In this document: positions 2,177-43,425 of the stretch, piece by piece
How positions within the stretch are numbered: position 1 is the first letter of the stretch
Layout: each line of letters starts with the position of its first letter
DNA from: an uncultured Roseicyclus sp.
Lineage (GTDB): Bacteria; Pseudomonadota; Alphaproteobacteria; Rhodobacterales; Rhodobacteraceae
DNA: 64,000 nucleotides
Direction: 5' to 3'
Assembly (NCBI GenBank): GCA_947489665.1
Contig: CANLEH010000002.1
Coordinates: forward strand, 124,001-188,000
Notes under the pieces: model-generated
Told to the model about the DNA's origin: nothing
What the model saw: the letters and a program-made list of their open reading frames with translations, nothing else
Database searches by the model: none
Made by a program: the position numbers and the translations under genes

Positions 2177-2830
2177 TTACCGCGTCGTCTCAGTCAGGCG
2201 GCGGCGGACATAGGTTTGGACGTGGTCGATCATCGGGTCCATGTGCGGGTCTTCGAAGAAGTGGCCGGCGCCTTCCATCTCCTCATGGGTGATGGTGATG
2301 CCCTTCTGCTCGTGCAACTTGTCGACGAGGATGCGAGTGTCCTGCGGTTTGGCCACGCGGTCGGCGGTGCCGTTGATGATCAAGCCCGAGGACGGGCAGG
2401 GGGCGAGGAACGAGAAATCGTACATATTGGCGGGCGGCGAGACGGAGATGAAGCCCGTGATCTCGGGCCGACGCATCAGAAGCTGCATGCCGATCCACGC
2501 GCCAAAGGAGAAACCCGCGACCCAGCAATGCTTGGAATTGGGGTTCATCGATTGGAGGTAGTCGAGTGCGGAGGCGGCATCGCTGAGCTCGCCAATGCCC
2601 TGGTCATATTCGCCCTGGCTTCGGCCCACGCCCCGGAAATTGAAGCGCAGCACGGTGAAGCCCATCTGATGGAAGGCGTAGTGCAGGTTGTAGACCACGC
2701 GGTTGTTCATCGTGCCGCCGAATTGCGGATGCGGATGAAGAATGATCGCGATGGGCGCGTCTTTGGCTTTCTGGGGGTGGTAGCGGCCTTCCAAGCGGCC
2801 TTCGGGTCCGGGGAAAATAACCTCGGGCAT
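2177..2830 (-). CDS. alpha/beta hydrolase
   Basis: A 217-residue cytoplasmic alpha/beta hydrolase of the small 'CocE/NonD or dienelactone hydrolase-like' type. Visible features are the HPHPQFGGTMNN oxyanion-region segment near residue 32, LRFNFRGVGRS, the nucleophile elbow GFSFGAW with the catalytic serine, a C-terminal Asp in GTADRV and a His in GAGHFFED. Family members hydrolyse small esters, but the substrate is not predictable. The start at 2830 gives a complete fold; the promoter would lie in the region shared with the divergent iscR-like gene. Confidence 0.82.
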   Translation of the reverse strand: MPEVIFPGPEGRLEGRYHPQKAKDAPIAIILHPHPQFGGTMNNRVVYNLHYAFHQMGFTVLRFNFRGVGRSQGEYDQGIGELSDAASALDYLQSMNPNSKHCWVAGFSFGAWIGMQLLMRRPEITGFISVSPPANMYDFSFLAPCPSSGLIINGTADRVAKPQDTRILVDKLHEQKGITITHEEMEGAGHFFEDPHMDPMIDHVQTYVRRRLTETTR

Positions 2831-2888
2831 CCTGTCTCCTTCGCGTGCGCGGCGCTTGGCCGCTTTCTTGACGGGCGGGGCGCACGTC

Positions 2889-2905
2889 TTTAGAACGATT
2901 CCAAA
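2889..2905. promoter_or_regulatory. Irr/ICE-like operator in front of the suf operon
   Basis: The sequence TTTAGAA-CGA-TTCCAAA matches the iron control element consensus TTTAGAA-N3-TTCTAAA known for the haem-responsive regulator Irr of alphaproteobacteria at all but one position. It lies 123 bases upstream of the start of the iscR-like gene and 59 bases upstream of the divergent hydrolase gene. The match is seen in the sequence; Irr control is inference, but Irr control of suf operons is an established theme in Rhizobiales and Rhodobacterales. Confidence 0.6.
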
Positions 2906-3027
2906 TTGGAGAGGGGTCTTGTCCCACTCCGCAGGGCTGTTCCGCAGTTAAGCGGGAGGGCGGGAAAGGTCAATCGGAAGGGCGCGTCTCGCGCCGTTCC
3001 ATGCGCTTAATTTTCGGGGGTGTGGCC

Positions 3028-3486
3028 ATGAAACTGAGCACCAAGGGGCGCTATGCGATGGTGGCGATGGCCGACCTTGCCTTGCAGCCCGAGGATCAGC
3101 TGACGCCCCTGTCGGATCTGTCGAAGCGGCAGGACATCTCCTTGCCCTATCTGGAGCAGCTTTTCGTGAAGCTGCGGCGCGCTGATCTGGTGACCTCGGT
3201 GCGCGGCCCGGGTGGCGGCTATAAGCTGGCGCGGGCGGCCAATGACATCCGGGTGGTGGAGATTTTCGAGGCTGTGGATGAGACAGTGTCGGCATTGCAC
3301 ACTGGCGCTGGTGCATCCGGCGGGGCGTCGGGCAGCCGCGCGCAGAGCCTGACCAACCGGTTGTGGGAAGGCTTTTCGGCCCATGTCTATGTGTTCCTTC
3401 ATCAGACGCGTCTGTCGGATGTGGTGAAGAACGACCTGACGCCCTGCCCGGCGGTTCCGAACCTGTTCGAGCTGGTGGATGAGTAA
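3028..3486 (+). CDS. iscR: Rrf2-family Fe-S regulator, IscR-like
   Basis: A 152-residue winged-helix regulator beginning MKLSTKGRYAMVAMADLAL, with recognition segment ISLPYLEQLFVKLRRADLV and wing RGPGGGYKLAR, all typical of IscR. The ATG at 3028 is chosen over the 3001 ATG because it gives the conserved N-terminus. The region where E. coli IscR has its three cluster cysteines (about residues 90-108) holds only Gly/Ser/Ala/Thr here; the only cysteine is Cys140. A single-cysteine IscR that still binds a cluster and represses Fe-S genes is described in Rhodobacter sphaeroides. It is the first gene of the suf operon and is its probable local regulator. Confidence 0.85.
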   Translation: MKLSTKGRYAMVAMADLALQPEDQLTPLSDLSKRQDISLPYLEQLFVKLRRADLVTSVRGPGGGYKLARAANDIRVVEIFEAVDETVSALHTGAGASGGASGSRAQSLTNRLWEGFSAHVYVFLHQTRLSDVVKNDLTPCPAVPNLFELVDE

Positions 3487-3675
3487 GTTGGACAGGGGTT
3501 GCGCCGGCTTCGCCGTCGCCGGAGGCGATTTTTCTGGCGAAAAATCGCGGGCGTTCGGGGCAGGCGTTTTGATGCAAGGTCCAAGGGCCGCTTGTGTTGC
3601 GCGGTCGGAGCCTCCGGCGGAGGTATTTTCGAAACGAGGAAGACAGGATTTGTTTTCACGCGCGGACGGTGTCAC
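3487..3675 (+). repeat. intergenic hairpin element, copy A
   Basis: The spacer between the iscR-like gene and the first cysteine desulfurase contains CCTCC-GGC-GGAGG immediately followed by TATTTTCGAAACGAGGAAG (3611-3643), the same layout as copies near 13.7, 46.4 and 49.95 kb. Its left part (3494-3520, TTGCGCCGGCTTCGCCGTCG) is also found, reverse-complemented, around 13780-13800. A frame is open across the spacer, but its translation is Arg-rich filler, so it is treated as non-coding. Confidence 0.55.
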
Positions 3676-4719
3676 GTGAGCGGGCGGATCTATCTGGATT
3701 CGAACGCCACTGCACCGCTGCGGGCTGAGGCGCGGGCGGCCATGGTGGCGGCGATGGATGTGGTGGGCAATCCGTCTTCCGTGCATGCCGAAGGGCGCGC
3801 GGCCAAGGCGATGATGGAACGCGCGCGCGCGCAGGTGGCAGAGGCCTTGGGCGCGCAAGCGGCAGATATCGTGTTCGTGTCAGGAGCCACGGAGGCCGCG
3901 GCCCTGGCGATGGCCGGACGGGGTCTGGCGGTCGCCGGCATTGAGCATGACGCGGTCTTGGCCTGGGGCGAAGCGGCGCTGCCGGTGTCCCACGATGGGA
4001 TCGTGGCGATCGCCGCACCGGAGCGCGCCTGTGTGCAGGTCGCCAATTCCGAGACTGGGCTTTTGCAGAACTTGCCCGCGGGCCTTGCGGTGAGTGACTG
4101 GACGCAAGGGTTCGGGAAGATCCCGCTGGCGTTCGATTGGGCGGGCATTGATATGGCCTTTGTGTCTGCCCACAAGATCGGTGGGCCCAAGGGAGTGGGC
4201 GCGCTGATCCTGCGGCGTGGCCTTGATGTTGAGGCGCGGATCAAGGGCGGGGGGCAGGAGATGGGCCGCCGCCATGGGACCGAGAACCTGATCGGAATCG
4301 CTGGATTTGGGGCCGCAGCGGAGGCGGCAGCGCAAGATTTGGCGGATGGCGTATGGGCCAGGGTTGAGAAACTTAGAAATATTCTAGAAAAGACTCTGGA
4401 ACCCGCGACACAATCGACTATTTTTGTCGGGAAAGGGGCGCCACGCCTTCCGAACACGTCGATGTTCATCACGGAAGGCTGGAAAGGCGAGACCCAGGTG
4501 ATGGCGATGGATCTGGCTGGATTTGCCGTCTCGGCGGGGTCGGCATGCTCCAGCGGCAAGGTGAAGGCCTCGGGCGTTTTGCGCGCGATGGGATATTCGG
4601 AAGAGCAGGCGGCGTGTGCGTTGCGCGTGTCGTTGGGACCTTCCAACACGGAAGCCGAGGTCAGGGCGTTTTGCGATGCCTGGCTGGCGGCGAGAGAGAA
4701 GAAATTGGCGCGGGTTTGA
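3676..4719 (+). CDS. cysteine desulfurase (IscS/NifS type)
   Basis: A 347-residue PLP enzyme that removes sulfur from cysteine for Fe-S cluster building. The start is GTG at 3676 ([14 protein letters not shown]), because upstream residues in the open frame are Arg-rich filler and the family begins with YLDxNAT. PLP-binding Lys167 lies in [10 protein letters not shown], and the persulfide Cys291 lies in [15 protein letters not shown], the long mobile loop of class I desulfurases. It is somewhat short for the family (about 385-400). It stands between the regulator and sufB, so it is a second desulfurase in the same operon as sufS. Confidence 0.87.
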
Positions 4720-4741
4720 TCCGCGATCTGGAGGGTTTGAG

Positions 4742-6256
<1,515 letters not shown>

Positions 6257-6293
6257 CCGCTTGGTCGCGCCGTGTTTGCAGTGAGGATCCGCC

Positions 6294-6527
6294 GTGAGCC
6301 ACGAGGATGATATCCAACCCAGATCGCCCGGCCGACGGGTGTTTACCATGGCTGTTCTGGTCATGGCGGTGGTGGCGATTGGCATCTCGATGACTGTGGC
6401 TGGCGGGTTCTGGGGCTCGGGCGATAGTGCCAACCCGCTTGACCCCACGCATTTCGGTGCGGGCACGGCGGACTCGCCCTACTGCAACCGGGATGGCGGG
6501 TTCAGCTTCTGGCGTCCGGTCTGTTGA
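6294..6527 (+). CDS. small single-span membrane protein
   Basis: A 77-residue protein starting at GTG 6294, 37 bases after sufB. It has an N-terminal basic segment (RSPGRR), one membrane span (about residues 17-37, FTMAVLVMAVVAIGISM and on) and a Gly/Asn-rich periplasmic tail with two cysteines (SPYCNRDGG and WRPVC at the very end). I do not recognise the family. It opens the insert between sufB and sufC and ends 10 bases before the first FkbM gene, so it is probably translated from the same message. Confidence 0.55.
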   Translation: MSHEDDIQPRSPGRRVFTMAVLVMAVVAIGISMTVAGGFWGSGDSANPLDPTHFGAGTADSPYCNRDGGFSFWRPVC

Positions 6528-6537
6528 GGGGGGTGAG

Positions 6538-7437
6538 ATGAGCGTTGGATTTCACCCGGATCGCGCGAAGGCGCTGATCGACATTCTGAAGCCCGCGCGG
6601 ATGACGCGGGTGGTGGATATCGGGGCGAACCCCCTGGATGAGACGCCTTACAAGGGTCTGCTGTCCATCGGCGGGTGCGATGTTTGGGGATTTGAGCCGC
6701 AGGAGCAGGCATTCGATCGATTGATCGCCAATAAGGGCCCCCATGAGAATTACATTTGCGCGGCTGTGGGCGACGGCAAGAAGGCTGAATTGAAGATCTG
6801 CGCGGACAGCGGTTTCACGTCGCTCCTTGAGCCGAACCCGGCCTACATTGACGGGATCGGCCAGTCCAAGGACCGGATGAGGGTGGTTGAGCGGGTCGAG
6901 ATCAAAACCTCACGCCTTGATAGTCTGAAAGACCTGCCGGATTTCGATCTTCTCAAGATCGACATCCAAGGTGGTGAGCGTGCGGTGTTCCGGGGTGGGC
7001 CGAAGAAGCTGAGCAAAGCGCTGGCTGTGATCACCGAAGTCGCTGCTTTGCCCCTATACGTGGATCAACCTGTGATGGGCGAACAGATGGTGGAGCTCGG
7101 TAAGCATGGCTTCCACCTTCACAAATTTCTGTTCCTCAAGACTATTGGCTATCGCAACCGCTGGTCTGGCCGTTTGAAGCGCGGGCTTTATCGCAGCCAG
7201 CTAAGCGATGGCGACGCGGTCATGGTGCGCGGGTTGATGGACATCAATGGCCTGGAAGACGAGGAGCTGAAGCATCTTGCGATCCTGTGCGACAGTGTCT
7301 TGCTGACCCAGGATCTGGGTGTGACGGCGATGGCCGAGCTGATGCATCGCGGCGTTTTGCAGGAGGCGCGTTTGCACGATTATGTCGACCTGCTGCCCAA
7401 GGTATCGCCCCGGCCAGTGGAGACGGCTGCGCAATGA
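6538..7437 (+). CDS. FkbM-family SAM-dependent methyltransferase
   Basis: A 299-residue protein with the Rossmann methyltransferase motif VVDIGANPLDETPYKG near residue 23 (SAM binding) and LLKIDIQGGERAVFRGG near residue 140, the acidic post-II motif characteristic of FkbM methyltransferases, which methylate hydroxyls of sugars or polyketides. The C-terminal third (residues 200-299) is an extension rich in Leu/Asp without recognised motifs. Its start ATG at 6538 follows a GGGGTGAG ribosome site. Its stop overlaps the next ATG (ATGA), so the two methyltransferases are translationally coupled. The substrate is probably a surface glycan, judging from the neighbouring pyruvyl transferase. Confidence 0.82.
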   Translation: MSVGFHPDRAKALIDILKPARMTRVVDIGANPLDETPYKGLLSIGGCDVWGFEPQEQAFDRLIANKGPHENYICAAVGDGKKAELKICADSGFTSLLEPNPAYIDGIGQSKDRMRVVERVEIKTSRLDSLKDLPDFDLLKIDIQGGERAVFRGGPKKLSKALAVITEVAALPLYVDQPVMGEQMVELGKHGFHLHKFLFLKTIGYRNRWSGRLKRGLYRSQLSDGDAVMVRGLMDINGLEDEELKHLAILCDSVLLTQDLGVTAMAELMHRGVLQEARLHDYVDLLPKVSPRPVETAAQ

Positions 7438-8234
7438 GCGAGGCCTTGGCTCATACCGCCCTGGCGAAAGCCGGACGGCTGTTGCGCAACACAGACGCGC
7501 AGCGTGCGCTTCTGGCCAACGCGGCCGATGTGCTTGACGGTTTGCAGCTGACCGAGACAGAGATTGAGGGGCGTGAGGTCACCTTCGCCACCAACATGCT
7601 GCGCGATCCGATCCAGCGCCGCCACCGCAAGGGCAAGTTCTTTGAGGCCGAAGAGTTGGGCCTGATGGCGCGCTACCTTCCCGAAGGCGGCACGTTTGTG
7701 GATATCGGAGCGAATGTGGGGAACCATACGATCTACGCAGGGCTGTTTCTGGCGGCCCGTCGGATCATTCCGATTGAGCCGAACCCATTGGCGTGCCGCT
7801 TGTTAATGCTCAACATCGTGCTCAATGGGCTGAGCGATCAGATCGTGTTCGATCATATCGGTGTGGGTGCCGCGGATGTTGCGTCCGATGGGTTCGCCAT
7901 GACCGAGCGGCGCAAGAATCTTGGCGCGTCGCGCATGGTCGCGGGTGAGGGTGATATTCGCACTGTGCGCCCCGATGAAGTGTTGCGAGATGAGACGCCC
8001 GATTTCATCAAGATCGACGTCGAAGGCATGGAGATGGACGTGCTGCGCGGTTTGCAGAAGACCATCCGCCGCTGTCGTCCGGTGCTGTTGGTGGAATGTG
8101 ATCGCGAGAATATCCACGACTTTGCCGATTGGCGGTTGGCCAATGGGTTCCAAATCCCTGCGTCGATCAAGCATTACGCGGAGAACCGGAATTTCCTTTT
8201 GGTGCCTGAAGAACGTGCGGAGGAATTCGCATGA
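7434..8234 (+). CDS. FkbM-family methyltransferase, second copy
   Basis: A 266-residue SAM-dependent methyltransferase with FVDIGANVGNHTIYAG (residues about 85-100) and DFIKIDVEGMEMDVLRG (about 190-206), closer to the FkbM consensus than the preceding gene. The N-terminal 80 residues (LAHTALAKAGRLLRN and on) are a helical extension. It starts within the stop of the upstream gene (ATGA at 7434-7437) and itself ends in an ATGA overlap with the pyruvyl transferase gene. The two FkbM proteins are diverged in sequence, so a simple recent duplication is unlikely. Confidence 0.86.
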   Translation: MSEALAHTALAKAGRLLRNTDAQRALLANAADVLDGLQLTETEIEGREVTFATNMLRDPIQRRHRKGKFFEAEELGLMARYLPEGGTFVDIGANVGNHTIYAGLFLAARRIIPIEPNPLACRLLMLNIVLNGLSDQIVFDHIGVGAADVASDGFAMTERRKNLGASRMVAGEGDIRTVRPDEVLRDETPDFIKIDVEGMEMDVLRGLQKTIRRCRPVLLVECDRENIHDFADWRLANGFQIPASIKHYAENRNFLLVPEERAEEFA

Positions 8235-9037
8235 GTGCTCCGCTGCGCCTCTACTACTGGCCCGCGCCGAATTTCGGCGACGCGTTGAGCCACCTGATCG
8301 TCGAGCATGTCTCGGGCCGGCGCGTCGAACAGGTGCGTCCGAAGCAGGCGGAGCTGTTTGCCCTTGGCTCGCTGATGCATGTGATTGCCAAGCACTGGAC
8401 GGACCACAGCCGGGGGGAGGGGCCGATCCTGTGGGGGACGGGCCTGTTGAACCCGTTTTACCGGAAGGATTTCTTGCAGAACGTGCGGGTGCGCTTGCTG
8501 CGTGGGCCGGTCTCTGCCGCATTCCTGCGCCTGAAGATGACGGAGTTCGGGGATCCCGGGCTGTTGGCCGATGATGTGATTGGGCCCGTGGCGGAACGCC
8601 ACGACCGGATCGCGATTGTGCCGCATCATTCCCAAATGGACGATCCGCGTTTTGTGGACATGGTGGAGGCTGATCCGGCGCTGCATCTGATCGACGTGCG
8701 GCTGGACCCGGTGACAGTCTGCCGTGAGATTGCAGCGTCGGCCCATGTGTTCTCGGCCAGCCTGCACGGGCTGATCGTGGCCGACGCCTATGGCATCCCC
8801 AACACCTGGATGGACCCCACCGAACAAGGCCGCCTGAAATATCATGACTACGCCGCGTCCATTGGGCGCGACATGACCTATCCCGTTGAAATCCCGGATG
8901 TTCCAGCGGCCGCGCGGGCTGTGAAGGATCATCCGCTTCCCTATGCCGAAGGTATCGCACGTTGCCGCGAGAGCCTTCTGCGCCATTTCCCGGCAGAGCT
9001 GCGCGCTGCCCAACCGAATGAGGTATCCCATGCTTGA
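8231..9037 (+). CDS. polysaccharide pyruvyl transferase family protein
   Basis: A 268-residue protein of the PS_pyruv_trans family, which transfers pyruvate from phosphoenolpyruvate to sugars of exopolysaccharides and related glycans. It begins LRLYYWPAPNFGDALSHLI, the typical N-terminal GDxLs motif, and has the GTGLLNP, LLRGPVSA and conserved SASLHGLIVADAYGIPN segments of the C-terminal Rossmann half. It is coupled by ATGA to the upstream methyltransferase, and its last codons overlap the sufC start by 8 bases. Together with the two FkbM genes it looks like a small glycan-decoration module. Confidence 0.85.
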   Translation: MSAPLRLYYWPAPNFGDALSHLIVEHVSGRRVEQVRPKQAELFALGSLMHVIAKHWTDHSRGEGPILWGTGLLNPFYRKDFLQNVRVRLLRGPVSAAFLRLKMTEFGDPGLLADDVIGPVAERHDRIAIVPHHSQMDDPRFVDMVEADPALHLIDVRLDPVTVCREIAASAHVFSASLHGLIVADAYGIPNTWMDPTEQGRLKYHDYAASIGRDMTYPVEIPDVPAAARAVKDHPLPYAEGIARCRESLLRHFPAELRAAQPNEVSHA

Positions 9038-9785
9038 GATCAAAGGCCTGGCCGTCAAACTGGAAGAAGAAGACAAGCAGATCCTGAAAGGTGTCGACCT
9101 GAGCGTCGAGGCTGGCAAGGTGCACGCGATCATGGGGCCCAATGGCTCGGGCAAGTCGACACTGTCCTACGTGCTGACAGGCCGTGATGGCTACGAGGTC
9201 ACGGGCGGGTCCGCCACGCTGGAAGGCGAGGACCTGCTGGACATGGACCCGGAAGAACGTGCGGCGGCGGGGCTGTTCTTGGCATTCCAATACCCGGTCG
9301 AAATTCCCGGTGTGGGCAACATGACCTTCTTGCGCACGGCACTGAATGCTCAGCGGAAAAGCCGGGGCGAGGAAGAGATGAGCGCAGGCGATTTCCTCAA
9401 GCTGATCCGCGCCAAGGCAAAGGATCTGAAGATCGACGCCGACATGTTGAAGCGCCCTGTGAATGTGGGCTTCTCGGGCGGTGAGAAGAAGCGCAACGAA
9501 ATCCTGCAAATGGCGATGCTGGAACCGAAGATGTGCATCCTGGATGAGACCGACTCGGGCCTCGACGTGGACGCAATGAAGCTGGTGTCTGAAGGTGTGA
9601 ACGCGTTGCGCGACGAGGGGCGTGGCTTCCTGGTGATCACGCACTATCAGCGCCTGCTGGATCACATCCAGCCCGATGTCGTGCACATCATGGCGGACGG
9701 TCGCATCGTGAAGACCGGCGGGCCGGAGCTCGCGCTTGAGGTCGAAAAGAACGGCTATGCCGATATTCTGGCGGAGGTGGCGTAA
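9030..9785 (+). CDS. sufC: Fe-S assembly ATPase SufC
   Basis: A 251-residue ABC-type ATPase that energises the SufB-SufD scaffold. Walker A is at residues 36-44 (GPNGSGKST), the Q-loop at Gln87 (FLAFQYPVEIPG), the signature motif is FSGGEKKRNE, and Walker B is MCILDETDSGLD. The start is ATG at 9030, which lies inside the last codons of the pyruvyl transferase gene (8-base overlap); this makes sufC translation dependent on the inserted genes. It is followed without a gap by sufD (TAATG). Confidence 0.96.
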   Translation: MLEIKGLAVKLEEEDKQILKGVDLSVEAGKVHAIMGPNGSGKSTLSYVLTGRDGYEVTGGSATLEGEDLLDMDPEERAAAGLFLAFQYPVEIPGVGNMTFLRTALNAQRKSRGEEEMSAGDFLKLIRAKAKDLKIDADMLKRPVNVGFSGGEKKRNEILQMAMLEPKMCILDETDSGLDVDAMKLVSEGVNALRDEGRGFLVITHYQRLLDHIQPDVVHIMADGRIVKTGGPELALEVEKNGYADILAEVA

Positions 9786-11086
9786 TGGCGGCTCCGGCTG
9801 TGAAACAGGACGCGACCGAGGCGCGGATCGCCGGTTTGGCGATGCCCGATGGGGCAGGGTGGGCGCAAGACGCCCGCAAGGCGGCCTTGGCGCGTGTACG
9901 TGAGATGGGCCTGCCCACACGGCGGGACGAATATTGGCGCTATACCGATCCGGCGTCTCTCGTGCAGGCATCGGCGCCGCGCGCTGCGATCTTTGATGAT
10001 CGGGATGAGCCACCGGTTTTTGGCGATATCGACAAGCTGAATATCGTGTTTGTGGATGGCGTGTTTGATGCAGACCGCTCGGACCCGCTGGACATGGCCG
10101 GGTTGGAGATTGAACGCCTGTCTGATGCCACGGCGACCGACATTCACTGGGCGAAGGACCTCTATGGCGTGCGCGAGACCGCAGGCCAGGACCCCGTGGC
10201 GCGGCCCTTGGCGGCGCTGAACACAGCCTTTGCCAGCGATGGCATTGTGATCCGTGCGACGGGGAAGGCTGAAAAGCCTGTCTGCTTCATTTACCTGCAC
10301 CGGGACGAGACCTCGGACGCGATCCTGCATCATCTGGTGAAGGTGGAACCGGAGGCCGAGCTGACCATTCTTGAGGTCGGACCGGCGGCTGCGCGCTTCA
10401 ACAAGTGCATGGAGATCGACGTGGCCGACACGGGCGCGTTCCACCATGTCCGTGCACAGGGACGCGACCATGAACGCCGTGCGGCCACGCATATGTTTGC
10501 GCGGGTTGGGGCGGAGTCCCTCTACAAGAGCTTCACGCTGACCGCGAACGGCGTGATGACGCGCAATGAACATGTCATTGAGATCGTTGGTGATAATGCG
10601 TCGGCCCATGTGGCCGGGGCCGCGCTCGGCGATGGCAGAAACGCGTCGTTCCACCATGACGACACGGTTTTCATAACCCATGACGCGCTGAACGGCGAAA
10701 GCCGGCAGGTCTACAAGAAGGTCCTGCGCAACGGTGCGGAGGGCGTGTTCCAGGGCAAGATCCTTGTCAAGGAAGGCGCGCAGAAGACCGATGGCTACCA
10801 GATCAGCCAATCCCTGCTTCTGGATGATGACAGCAGCTTTCAGGCCAAGCCCGAGTTGGAAATCTACGCCGACGATGTGGCCTGTTCCCACGGCTCCACC
10901 ACTGGCGCGATTGACGAGACGGCGCTGTTTTACCTCCGCTCCCGCGGGGTGCCGACAGATATCGCGACGGACCTGCTCGTGATCGCGTTCCTGGCGGAAG
11001 CCATCGATGAAATCGAAAGCGAGGCACTGCGCGAGGACATCATCGCGCGGTTGATGCATTGGCTGGAGCGGCGCAGGCAGGGCTGA
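9785..11086 (+). CDS. sufD: Fe-S scaffold protein SufD
   Basis: A 433-residue paralogue of SufB and partner in the SufBC2D complex. Recognisable blocks are LPTRRDEYWRYTDPASL at the N-terminus, the central beta-helix, FQGKILVKEGAQKTDGYQ, and the C-terminal ACSHGSTTGAIDETALFYLRS, which carries the Cys-Ser-His segment conserved in SufD. The start ATG shares one base with the sufC stop. The length matches alphaproteobacterial SufD. Confidence 0.95.
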   Translation: MAAPAVKQDATEARIAGLAMPDGAGWAQDARKAALARVREMGLPTRRDEYWRYTDPASLVQASAPRAAIFDDRDEPPVFGDIDKLNIVFVDGVFDADRSDPLDMAGLEIERLSDATATDIHWAKDLYGVRETAGQDPVARPLAALNTAFASDGIVIRATGKAEKPVCFIYLHRDETSDAILHHLVKVEPEAELTILEVGPAAARFNKCMEIDVADTGAFHHVRAQGRDHERRAATHMFARVGAESLYKSFTLTANGVMTRNEHVIEIVGDNASAHVAGAALGDGRNASFHHDDTVFITHDALNGESRQVYKKVLRNGAEGVFQGKILVKEGAQKTDGYQISQSLLLDDDSSFQAKPELEIYADDVACSHGSTTGAIDETALFYLRSRGVPTDIATDLLVIAFLAEAIDEIESEALREDIIARLMHWLERRRQG

Positions 11087-11092
11087 CGCGGG

Positions 11093-11665
11093 ATGGCATT
11101 GGTCAACGATATCACCGGCTCCTACCGCCGCCCTCGCTCGGTTTTCGCCGGGCTGCTGGCGCGTGGGGCGGACGATAAGACGGGGCTCGTGTTCCTGCTT
11201 CTGGCCATGGCTTTGGGCTTTGTCTCGGAACTGCCCGGCGTCTCGCGCGATGCCAACCTGCCCAACCCCGAGCTTGAGGCCGCCATCGCGGCAGAACGCG
11301 ACGATGTGCGCCCGATCGAAGGCGTCGAAGTGCCTGAGGCCATGGTGGACGCCAAATTCAGCGCGCTTCTGTCCGCCGAGATCATGGTGTGGTTCCTGAT
11401 CCTGCCACTGGTCTTTTACGGCGTCGCGATGGTGGGCCATTTGGTGGCCAAACTGTTTGGGGGGAAGCCTGATACAACCGCCTCTCGCCTTGCGCTGTTC
11501 TGGGCGCTGGTCGTCGCGGTCCCGCTCAAGCTGTTCCATGGGCTCGTGGGTGGTATGATCGGCCCGGGGCCAGCCCTGACGGCCGTTGGCTTTTTGTGGT
11601 TCGCGCTTTTGATGTGGAACTGGTCGATGAACCTGCGCGTCGCCGGGTGGGAGGCGCGGGCATGA
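11093..11665 (+). CDS. YIP1-family-like membrane protein
   Basis: A 190-residue inner-membrane protein with about four spans (residues roughly 32-46, 96-120, 135-155 and 160-180) and the N-terminal motif SYRRPRSVFAGLLARG, a signature of the Yip1 domain proteins found in Rhodobacteraceae suf operons. Its role is unknown. It begins 7 bases after sufD and overlaps the next gene by four bases. Confidence 0.75.
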   Translation: MALVNDITGSYRRPRSVFAGLLARGADDKTGLVFLLLAMALGFVSELPGVSRDANLPNPELEAAIAAERDDVRPIEGVEVPEAMVDAKFSALLSAEIMVWFLILPLVFYGVAMVGHLVAKLFGGKPDTTASRLALFWALVVAVPLKLFHGLVGGMIGPGPALTAVGFLWFALLMWNWSMNLRVAGWEARA

Positions 11666-12257
11666 CCGACCTCCTGCGGCTTCCAACCCTTTTGAACATG
11701 GTGCGCGACACGATCTCGGACCCGCGTCGCGGGGCTGAGATGATCCTGTCGCTGAACCTGCCGCGGTCCGCACTCTGGTTGGCCTTTTCCTTGACCATCG
11801 TCTTTTCGATGATCCTTGGGCTGCTGGTGACCTTCGTTCTCGGGGCCCCTGAAGAGGGGCCGCTGACCGGCCAGACCCCTGTGGCCCTCGGCCTGATGCA
11901 GGGCGCCTTTCTGTTTCTTGCGGTCCATGCTGTCACCCATATCGGCCGCATCTTTGGCGGCACCGGCAGTTTTGAGGGGGCCTTGGCGCTGGTCACCTGG
12001 CTGCAGTTCATCTTCATCGTTCTGCAGGTCTTGCAACTGGCCGTGGCCCTGATCGCCCCACCGCTGGCGGCCGTGATCTCGCTGCTGGCCATTGTCCTTT
12101 TCTTCTGGCTGCTGAGCCATTTCATCACGGTGCTGCACGGCTTCACCTCCGTGGGGCAGGTCTTTGTGATGACGCTGCTGAGCTTCGTGGTCATCCTCTT
12201 CATCCTGAGCCTCGTTCTGACTTTGCTGGGACTGGGCCTTCCGACGGGAACACCGAC

Positions 12258-12261
<4 letters not shown>
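11662..12261 (+). CDS. YIP1-family-like membrane protein, second copy
   Basis: A 199-residue polytopic membrane protein with DTISDPRRGAEMILSL at the N-terminus (the same 'pre-span' motif position as its neighbour) and about five hydrophobic spans. The start ATG at 11662 is in an ATGA overlap with the upstream YIP1-like gene, and its own stop overlaps the sufS start. The pair therefore sits as a coupled unit between sufD and sufS. How a membrane pair serves cluster assembly is not known. Confidence 0.75.
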
Positions 12262-13481
<1,220 letters not shown>

Positions 13482-13819
13482 CCCTGTCTTTCACCTAGCC
13501 CGGTCTCCAAGCGCTCCCGCGTCTCCCTCGGCCTGACGGCCTCCGGGACTTGGGCGTGGCGCGCGGGGCGCGTGCCGACCAGCCGGCCCGCGCGTCCACC
13601 CGCGGGCACTTTTGCTGAGAGGCGCCTACCCGAAAGACCGTTGATGGCTATGGCACGGATCCTTCGCATCTTTGTTCCATGAAAATGCCCGCCGGAGGCG
13701 ATCCCGCCCTTGCCCACAAAGCCAACACATCAGTTCAGGGTCCCTTGGCGCCGCGCCGAAGGCGCGGCGCCCCCGGGCGACGGCGCAGCCGGCGCAATCC
13801 CTCGCGAGACACGTGCCAA
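13482..13819. repeat. intergenic region with hairpin element, copy D
   Basis: A 338-base stretch between convergent sufS and tetR. On the minus strand, 13698-13667 read CCTCCGGCGGGCATTTTCATG then GAACAAAGATG, the same element as at 3.6, 46.4 and 49.95 kb. A perfect 11-bp stem with a three-base loop (GGCGCCGCGCC-GAA-GGCGCGGCGCC) lies at 13747-13771 and could terminate or stabilise either transcript. Short open frames here have no coding character. Confidence 0.6.
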
Positions 13820-14437
13820 CTAAGTGTCTGGCGTGATCAGGCCCAAGCCACGCAAATAGATGCCGATGCCAGCCTCAAGCAAATCCTCGGGCGGGAAGGG
13901 CGCATTGGCCCCCGGGCGGCCGCGCGCAAACAGCTCCACCACGCCGTGGCTCATCGCCCAGATATGGGCGGAGAACATCGACGGCGGCGGCCGTTTTTCG
14001 GGCGGGATATGGGCCGACAGTGCCTCTGCCGCGCGCTCAAGCACATCGCGGGATTTGTTGGCGGCGGCGGCCAGCTCAGGCGTGGCATTGGCGGATGTCC
14101 CGGACTCAAACATGGCCATGTAATGGCCGGGAAATTTGCGCGCGAAGGCCAGGTAGGCGCGGCCTGTGGCCTCAAACGCCGCAAGCGCGGTGGGTTGGCC
14201 ACCGTTATAAGCGTGGTTCATCAGATCCGCGAAAATCTCATGGCCCTGCCGCGCACATTCCGCGATCAGGTCTTCACGGCCCTCGAAATGCCGATAGACA
14301 GCCGCTGGCGTCACGCCCGCATTCTTCGCCGCCTCCGACAGGGTAAACCCCGTCGGGCCCTTCGCCTCAATCAGGCGCAGGGCGGCATCCACAAGCGCCT
14401 GCTTGAGATTGCCGTGATGATAGCCGCGCTTGGGCAT
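13820..14437 (-). CDS. TetR-family transcriptional regulator
   Basis: A 205-residue repressor with an N-terminal helix-turn-helix (FTLSEAAKNAGVTPAAVYRHF, about residues 31-50) and a C-terminal ligand/dimer domain of the WHG type (RAYLAFARKFPGHYMAMFES). The start is ATG at 14437 ([16 protein letters not shown]), which shares one base with the stop of ppk2, so it is co-transcribed with the polyphosphate kinase and translationally coupled. The ligand is unknown; the arrangement suggests that it responds to a state linked to polyphosphate or nucleotide level, which is inference only. Confidence 0.86.
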   Translation of the reverse strand: MPKRGYHHGNLKQALVDAALRLIEAKGPTGFTLSEAAKNAGVTPAAVYRHFEGREDLIAECARQGHEIFADLMNHAYNGGQPTALAAFEATGRAYLAFARKFPGHYMAMFESGTSANATPELAAAANKSRDVLERAAEALSAHIPPEKRPPPSMFSAHIWAMSHGVVELFARGRPGANAPFPPEDLLEAGIGIYLRGLGLITPDT

Positions 14438-43335: not shown

Positions 43336-43425
43336 TGGCGGAGAGACAGGGATTCGAACCCTGGGTGGGCTTGCACCCACAACGGTTTTCGAGACCGCCC
43401 CGTTCGACCACTCCGGCACCTCTCC
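43336..43425 (-). tRNA. tRNA-Ser (CGA anticodon)
   Basis: Read on the minus strand it folds as a long-variable-arm tRNA: acceptor GGAGAGG pairs with TCTCTCC, G discriminator and encoded CCA at 43338-43336, T-arm CAGGGTTCGAATCCCTG, and anticodon loop CTCGAAA giving CGA, which reads UCG serine codons. The variable arm GTGGGTGCAAGCCCAC is of the serine type. The 3' end faces the gene-poor region at 42.0-43.3 kb, a usual side for integrated elements. Confidence 0.96.

Follow-up and report, generated by a model that had tools for sequence, protein, structure and literature searches.

The 64 000-nucleotide window analysed here belongs to contig CANLEH010000002.1 of an uncultured Roseicyclus sp. (GCA_947489665.1; 11 contigs, 4.13 Mb) and carries an iron–sulphur (Fe–S) cluster assembly operon of the suf type in which four unrelated genes stand between sufB and sufC. 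SufB, SufC and SufD act as one complex, and the operon is usually treated as fixed. All of its genes lie on the + strand, in the order rrf2/IscR, IscS-like gene, sufB, gene for a protein of 77 amino acids (aa), FkbM, FkbM, pyruvyltransferase, sufC, sufD, Yip1, Yip1, sufS; sufB, sufC, sufD and sufS are intact and co-directional, as expected of a SUF operon. The named relatives of the window's SufB are from Rhodobacterales, e.g. Boseongicola, Jannaschia and Roseovarius. We refer to the interval from the sufB stop to the sufC start as the slot and to the genes within it as cargo. The features of the operon are as follows.

2889..2905, + strand: Irr-box-like palindrome, a candidate iron control element (0 mismatches to the pattern TTTAGAANNNTTCNAAA)
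3001..3486, + strand: Rrf2/IscR-like regulator, the operon's first gene (PF02082, 114 bits; TIGR02010, 140 bits, below its cut-off of 207.55)
~3676..4719, + strand, start codon uncertain: IscS/NifS-type cysteine desulfurase (PF00266, 138 bits)
4742..6256, + strand: sufB, the left border of the slot (TIGR01980, 640 bits, passing the cut-off)
6257..9029, + strand: variable slot, sufB stop to sufC start, 2773 bp in the window (conservation profile, 144 genomes)
6294..6527, + strand: small membrane protein of 77 aa with a GTG start (one hydrophobic segment, by eye)
6538..7437, + strand: FkbM-type S-adenosylmethionine (SAM) methyltransferase 1, FkbM1 (PF05050, 56.9 bits; TIGR01444, 48.8 bits)
7434..8234, + strand: FkbM-type SAM methyltransferase 2, FkbM2 (PF05050, 67.5 bits; TIGR01444, 86.2 bits)
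8231..9037, + strand: polysaccharide pyruvyltransferase-like protein (PF04230, 30.6 bits; cut-off 25.3)
9018..9029, + strand: sufC leader with its own Shine–Dalgarno (SD) core GAGG, the right border of the slot (conserved across 144 loci)
9030..9785, + strand: sufC (TIGR01978, 354 bits, passing the cut-off)
9785..11086, + strand: sufD (TIGR01981, 210.6 bits, cut-off 222; PF01458, 207.7 bits)
11093..12261, + strand: two Yip1-type membrane genes (PF04893, 27.6 bits, just below the cut-off of 28.6, and 56.8 bits)
12258..13481, + strand: sufS (TIGR01979, 535 bits)

An earlier note on this DNA had described the membrane protein, two FkbM genes and PF04230 protein between sufB and sufC, the ATGA overlaps at 7434 and 8231 and the start of sufC inside the end of the pyruvyltransferase gene. 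All of this was borne out: the four genes are tightly packed on the sense strand, and sufC starts at 9030 with an overlap of 8 nt (ATGCTTGA). The operon is indeed kept intact despite its unrelated cargo. The G+C content of the slot (0.57–0.64) does not differ from that of its flanks.

The sufB–sufC junction was compared across 144 genomes of the same family (set A), representing 143 genera with one genome each, except for two from the window's own genus. The genomes were drawn from the best 150 of 380 with a SufB match, ranked by SufB score, and the set therefore leans toward nearer relatives. Five were excluded as their contigs end just downstream of sufB (G390, G348, G216, G129 and G139), and one of the resulting 145 sufB regions (L031–L175) was lost because its contig has no sufC (L087). 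A further 35 regions (set B, L176–L210) were picked by their matches to FkbM1; 16 of them had no sufB–sufC pair, and the set was kept out of the frequency counts. A named set of 80 loci, four of them without sufC, left 76. As a control for the rest of the class, 75 SufB rows minus two of the window's family and a partial second match in G456 gave 72; four of these lacked a SufC on the contig and strand of their SufB, so that 68 pairs from 67 genomes of other families remained.

In set A, sufB and sufC are always on the same strand, and the gap between them ranges from 21 to 3547 bp, exceeding 400 bp at 115 of the 144 loci. The neighbouring junctions are short, with maxima of 223 bp for rrf2–iscS (n = 131), 143 bp for iscS–sufB (n = 144), 50 bp for sufC–sufD (n = 143), 164 bp for sufD–yip1a (n = 142) and 166 bp for yip1b–sufS (n = 128); outlying values of −1515 for iscS–sufB and −1082 for sufD–yip1a are mis-assigned matches. 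The exception is yip1a–yip1b, which is longer than 400 bp in 4 of 129 cases (maximum 833 bp). The whole sufD–sufS interval has quartiles of 1063–1103 bp (n = 139), with five loci at ∼0.5 kb, one at −4 and five at 1.9–2.0 kb. The named set gave the same picture at sufB–sufC (51 of 76 gaps above 400 bp, median 774 bp), whereas the median in other families of the class is 32 bp, with 12 of the 68 pairs above 150 bp and only two above 400 bp. Since one junction varies while the others are near-fixed, and other families keep it short, the variability belongs mainly to this junction and mainly to this family.

The borders are sharp. Column conservation across the 144 genomes is almost completely lost once the stop codon of sufB is passed and recovers only ∼12 nt ahead of sufC, where a block reads roughly aaGGAGaaaAAa-ATG. 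An SD-like core is found at −20 to −3 relative to sufC in 136 of 144 loci, compared with 21 of 144 for the region −40 to −23; in the window this core, GAGG, sits within the last codons of the pyruvyltransferase gene. The slot thus spares both the sufB stop and the ribosome-binding site of sufC, so that translation of sufC does not need the cargo, and the proposal in the earlier note that it depends on the insert was not upheld, sufC having its own SD block whatever the cargo. Because the cargo fits between these two elements, all suf genes remain intact. Predicted slot genes are almost wholly in the sense orientation (338 of 339 in set A, 397 of 398 when set B is added, and 114 of 115 among the named loci), and 102 of 211 neighbouring slot genes in set A are no more than 10 nt apart. 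Same flanks, differing contents and nearly constant neighbouring junctions together show, at the sequence level, a single, sharply bounded slot that varies inside an otherwise near-fixed operon.

The contents of the slot are diverse. Across the 163 loci of sets A and B, the slots encode 398 predicted proteins, which fall into 76 clusters, 57 with a single member, although some of the small one-off open reading frames (ORFs) may be spurious. Several families recur in set A: YbjQ (PF01906; 84 of 144 loci), TM175, a poorly conserved membrane protein (40), FkbM (33), MT199, a methyltransferase-like protein of 199 aa with no Pfam match (31), cupin (10) and pyruvyltransferase (9), as well as small membrane proteins. 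No slot gene is predicted at 17 loci, where the gap never exceeds 154 bp. Counting every ORF, there are 92 different ordered contents in the 144 loci, 81 of them found once; the number is 72 if only clusters of at least three members are used, and 38 for the six main families alone (25 if order is ignored). Among named loci, no two of the seven titled Roseovarius have the same content, and one of these has no cargo; of the six titled Paracoccus, five lack cargo. The slot of Roseivivax lentus DSM 29430 contains two FkbM genes. Glycan-type enzymes (FkbM, MT199, pyruvyltransferase and a glycosyltransferase-like group, labels that rest partly on resemblance) occur at 58 of the 144 loci. Six loci of the two sets combine FkbM with pyruvyltransferase, and two of the six are from the window's genus.

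The commonest slot gene, the putative heavy-metal-binding YbjQ (e.g. the third slot gene of L154), has a median identity of 0.75 and is perhaps the oldest resident of the slot; a search of the available literature found no publication that mentions both YbjQ and the suf operon. Five named slots of 244–533 bp (L284, L305, L319, L329 and L334) have no gene predicted by our simple caller, and possibly hold decayed cargo or a small RNA.

Within the window's own genus, cargo is present at the junction in all 13 genomes, again with varying content: an fkbM2-like gene in 13 (41–100% identity), the pyruvyltransferase gene in 11, fkbM1 in seven and YbjQ in two, with an extra FkbM gene between the pyruvyltransferase gene and sufC in four. 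The survey of sufB–sufC spacing suggested in the earlier note therefore showed that other genomes carry the insert too, but the constant gene order that was looked for is seen neither between genera nor within the genus. Likewise, the glycan-modification insert that the note called unusual is real, but this description is too narrow: it is the slot itself that is unusual, and other genera carry other genes in it.

Two cargo families are found largely in the slot. FkbM1 has 61 matches in 60 of 394 genomes of the family, 44 of which lie at sufB/sufC by hand tally. MT199 has 112 matches in 106 of the 394 genomes; for the 67 whose position relative to suf was established (the tally leaves out the other 45), 49 are in the slot or no further than 1.6 kb from sufC, also by hand tally. 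Of the best 37 among these 67 (E ≤ 9.4e-60), 36 are in or near the slot; the remaining one and sufB are on separate contigs. The window genome has a distant MT199 relative of its own outside the slot, and a gene of the glycosyltransferase-like group is nearby in 3 of 12 loci examined with FkbM1 relatives that are not in the slot. By these matches, the close relatives of FkbM1 and MT199 reside mostly in the slot, giving at least two largely slot-resident families. Recombination between the suf operons of relatives would explain this.

The turnover of cargo was followed on a FastTree tree of SufB, SufC and SufD from 143 loci by comparing the number of state changes of each family with 200 shuffles. 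The observed changes (shuffle mean, minimum) were 35 for YbjQ (45.2, 37), 23 for TM175 (34.8, 29), 25 for FkbM (29.6, 24), 21 for MT199 (27.4, 21), 17 for the slot family tm57 (20.8, 17), 7 for pyruvyltransferase (8.8, 6), 9 for cupin (9.7, 8) and 9 for tm66 (8.8, 6). Similarity of content between genera is low, with a mean Jaccard index of 0.11–0.24 at SufBCD identities of ∼0.75–0.90. The identity of FkbM proteins does not follow that of SufBCD (Spearman 0.03); the values are 0.12–0.38 for the other slot families and 0.16 (IscS) to 0.54 (SufS) for the operon controls. The idea, also raised in the earlier note, that a module is hitch-hiking in the operon fits this high turnover.

Between the window and its congener G378, the synonymous divergence (dS) is 0.35 for fkbM1 and 0.25 for fkbM2, as against 0.67–1.23 for nine other genes from iscS to sufS, and the 5–95% bootstrap ranges of the FkbM pair (60 bootstraps) overlap none of those of the nine neighbours. 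The pair is not slow by nature, since its dS against two further genomes, G398 and G394, is 1.0–1.9. The FkbM block thus looks to have been exchanged recently inside the slot, on this dS comparison. With a ratio of non-synonymous to synonymous divergence (dN/dS) of 0.045–0.242 within the window's genus, slot genes are under purifying selection there. Together with the cargo present in all 13 genomes of the genus, this speaks against a chance arrangement.

The 77-aa membrane protein matches no Pfam or NCBIfam family, and is 83% identical to its G378 counterpart with a dN/dS of 0.13. In profile searches, both FkbM proteins exceed the Pfam and NCBIfam cut-offs (PF05050, 22.7 bits; TIGR01444, 37.7 bits). 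Residues D27, G29 and A30 of FkbM1 are invariant in an alignment of 10 sequences, in line with D-x-GA(N), which we take to be a class I SAM-methyltransferase motif. Its structural model (pLDDT 88.2) has class I SAM methyltransferases as its best Protein Data Bank (PDB) matches, over partial length and with query-normalized TM-scores (TMq) of ∼0.3–0.4. The pyruvyltransferase has no NCBIfam match, and its PF04230 match is strongest over residues 120–195 only; NFGD and SLHG are invariant in an alignment of the window's protein with eight named slot relatives. The model (pLDDT 91.7) resembles GT-B-like enzymes with modest TM-scores; the yeast pyruvyltransferase Pvg1p (5ax7, TMq 0.43) provides the sixth and seventh of seven PDB matches at E ≤ 0.001, and UDP-GlcNAc 2-epimerases are among the others. 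No sequence relative of FkbM1 or the pyruvyltransferase was found in the PDB at E ≤ 0.1. Most likely, the products of the window's cargo would add O-methyl and pyruvate groups to a surface or exported glycan. More broadly, the recurrence of glycan-modifying and small membrane proteins, as predicted from their sequences, suggests variable tailoring of the cell envelope.

A defence island was considered for the window's cargo and rejected, as none of the four slot proteins has a PADLOC match. The 199-aa methyltransferase of the L058 slot gave a weak PADLOC match to mads_2 (E 8.3e-07, 26.2 bits), which is probably a generic methyltransferase similarity.

The Irr-box-like palindrome lies ∼95 bp before rrf2 and is the only such site in the window, where 0.00 are expected; the pattern used, TTTAGAANNNTTCNAAA, is presumably that of the Irr box. 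Of 65 named loci at least 12 kb long, 26 have a similar site (up to one mismatch) 1.6–1.9 kb upstream of sufB, two more have one nearer to sufB and 37 have none. The first 4 kb downstream of sufB hold no such site at any of the 65, and neither does any of the 144 slots of set A. A simple consensus scan, which is weak in such genomes, returned no sigma70-like promoter in 2900–13800 and no + strand terminator-like site in 6256–9037. The separate promoter and terminator that the earlier note named as evidence against its proposal were thus not seen, with the same reservation about the scan. No Rfam family, riboswitch or other, reached its gathering score across 2700–13900. The Yip1-type gene pair between sufD and sufS is a usual part of the operon in the Rhodobacteraceae examined.

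Expression of the corresponding operon has been studied in Rhodobacter sphaeroides, where RT-PCR shows that RSP_0439, the gene in the slot, shares a transcript with sufB, and where it rises alongside sufB and sufC in an iscR mutant (values 0.67, 0.67 and 0.68; PMC4618611). Differential RNA sequencing (dRNA-seq) located promoters upstream of iscR and inside iscS, with no hint of another, and an Irr box is predicted upstream of iscR (PMC6956336). RSP_0439, sufB, sufC and sufD are listed in one iron-response cluster, with 1.49, 2.60, 1.75 and 3.40 in the first column; the other columns differ in sign, some being negative, and the column headings could not be identified in the text available (PMC4176601). 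A study of Irr gives RSP_0439 values similar to those of the neighbouring suf genes, again under headings that could not be identified in that text (PMC3413700). By analogy with R. sphaeroides, the window's cargo would be expressed with the suf genes. The shared control with iron proposed in the earlier note is accordingly plausible, given the site at 2889–2905 together with the cotranscription and cluster listing of RSP_0439; as a whole, the note's interpretation is partly supported.

The explanation that we favour, and consider probable as a whole, is a hypervariable cargo slot at sufB–sufC that is fed by recombination and co-expresses envelope-glycan genes with the Fe–S operon. Cargo would move by homologous recombination between the suf operons of relatives, the homology being provided by the conserved flanks or by genes shared inside the slot. 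On the model of R. sphaeroides, promoters ahead of iscR and within iscS would drive cargo and suf genes alike, so that the cargo would be made when Fe–S clusters are in demand. Several results weigh against this explanation. YbjQ and TM175 keep a clear inheritance signal, with fewer changes than in any of the 200 shuffles (the other families are near the shuffled values), and the FastTree tree itself is built on SufBCD alone. The evidence for exchange comes from one genome pair and 60 bootstraps, and the dS range of fkbM1 (0.28–0.43) narrowly misses that of the short membrane gene (0.45–1.14). Recent transfer between genera, sought by comparing nucleotide identities of slot genes with those of sufB and sufC, was almost absent: 119 of 3254 pairs of slot genes are more similar than sufB+sufC, seven of them by more than three points, and two of these seven are from the genus pair. 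Most turnover is therefore old, and with no comparably recent transfer between genera the claim of exchange is limited. One-off ORFs inflate the count of different contents, which is 38 with the six main families. For many cargo genes, among them YbjQ, cupin and the orphan membrane proteins, a role in glycan modification is not obvious; glycan-type enzymes are present at 58 of 144 loci. Finally, 27 of 211 spacings between slot genes exceed 150 bp, as do 29 of 127 distances from sufB to the first slot gene, leaving room for promoters. A stronger form, which we put forward tentatively and regard as doubtful, is a dedicated diversity locus, in which slot-resident families, refill by recombination and envelope tailoring tied to the iron/Fe–S regulon would make surface chemistry follow iron and redox state.

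The slot could instead be a purely permissive spot, where insertion is least harmful, genes are kept for their own reasons and iron co-regulation is incidental. The rationale is that sufB and sufC are not translationally coupled and sufC has a strong ribosome-binding site of its own; moreover, sufC–sufD and yip1b–sufS mostly overlap or abut and sufB–sufC does not, and the cargo is of mixed function, many of its small membrane proteins being orphans. An unrelated gene between sufB and sufC in Muricauda (PMC5484670) and a small ORF there in Caulobacter (PMC11475020) point the same way. However, iscS–sufB and rrf2–iscS are also usually short non-overlapping gaps, yet never exceed 143 and 223 bp, other families keep the sufB–sufC junction short (2 of 68 above 400 bp), and a few families recur, two of them mostly in the slot. 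We give this account a real but minor chance. It is unlikely, in our view, that the cargo was selected because its products are needed under iron scarcity or Fe–S damage, for which an iron-binding or protective surface polysaccharide, metal-binding YbjQ and cupin are candidates. Such functional coupling would agree with the Irr-box-like site at the head of the operon, with the upstream sites at 26 of 65 named loci, as against none in the 4 kb downstream of sufB at the 65 and none in the 144 slots, and with the grouping of RSP_0439 with sufB, sufC and sufD in an iron-response cluster (PMC4176601). Yet 37 of the 65 loci have no Irr-like site, the iron-response columns of that source differ in sign under unidentified headings, and no family occurs in more than 84 of 144 loci; since 17 of 144 loci and five of six named Paracoccus loci have no cargo, no cargo is required.

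Decidedly less probable is a large ancestral operon pared down by lineage-specific losses, with no horizontal exchange. YbjQ does look old, being present in 84 of 144 loci at a median identity of 0.75, and both its 35 changes (shuffle minimum 37) and the 23 of TM175 (minimum 29) fit inheritance. Against this, 57 of 76 clusters are single-member, though some may be spurious ORFs, the order of shared families is not constant, the genus contains a low-dS FkbM block, and FkbM identity does not follow SufBCD identity (Spearman 0.03). A mobile genetic element or integron-type site would account for a constant site with variable cargo but is very improbable. When 65 representatives of the minor slot proteins were searched, none matched a recombinase family and most had no match at all; within the genus, cargo changes gene by gene. 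A search for genomic-island features gave no integrase or transposase among these representatives and, in the window, no pair of border repeats at the two slot ends and no tRNA target, the only tRNA of the window being at 43336. A transposon or integron origin is therefore disfavoured.

The slot resembles known systems in part. Capsule and O-antigen loci and integration hot spots also combine conserved borders with exchangeable surface-glycan genes, and exchange there is likely via homology. The slot differs from these in lying inside one metabolic operon, in its small size (≤3.9 kb as measured) and almost wholly sense-strand genes, and in having a stop codon at one border and a ribosome-binding site at the other. 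The R. sphaeroides isc-suf operon, from iscR (RSP_0443) to a Yip1 gene (RSP_0432), has the same layout of iscR, iscS, sufB, RSP_0439, sufC, sufD, two Yip1 genes and sufS, but the available text of its accounts describes no variable slot, borders or recurring families (PMC4618611, PMC6956336). In Muricauda, an unrelated enzyme gene, momL, is at the same junction with suf intact and is reported to be cotranscribed; it differs in being a single case, reported as unique, and in encoding a quorum-quenching lactonase (PMC5484670). The small ORF at the sufB–sufC junction of Caulobacter is likewise a single case (PMC11475020). In our class control, two genomes of other families (L228 and L231) also have long gaps, of ∼747 and ∼1181 bp, that hold short ORFs of unrelated kinds. 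Together with momL of Muricauda, they suggest that tolerance of inserts at this junction may extend to other families. A search of the available literature found no earlier description of a family-wide sufB–sufC slot; single cases at the same junction (Muricauda, Caulobacter) were already known.

The slot gives a context to genes that isc-suf studies have had to leave as 'hypothetical', and it is a natural experiment in how an operon takes up cargo without being broken. Its variability suggests that exchangeable genes can be expressed from a core operon as from a stable platform, and raises the testable question of whether surface-glycan variation in these bacteria is coupled to iron supply.

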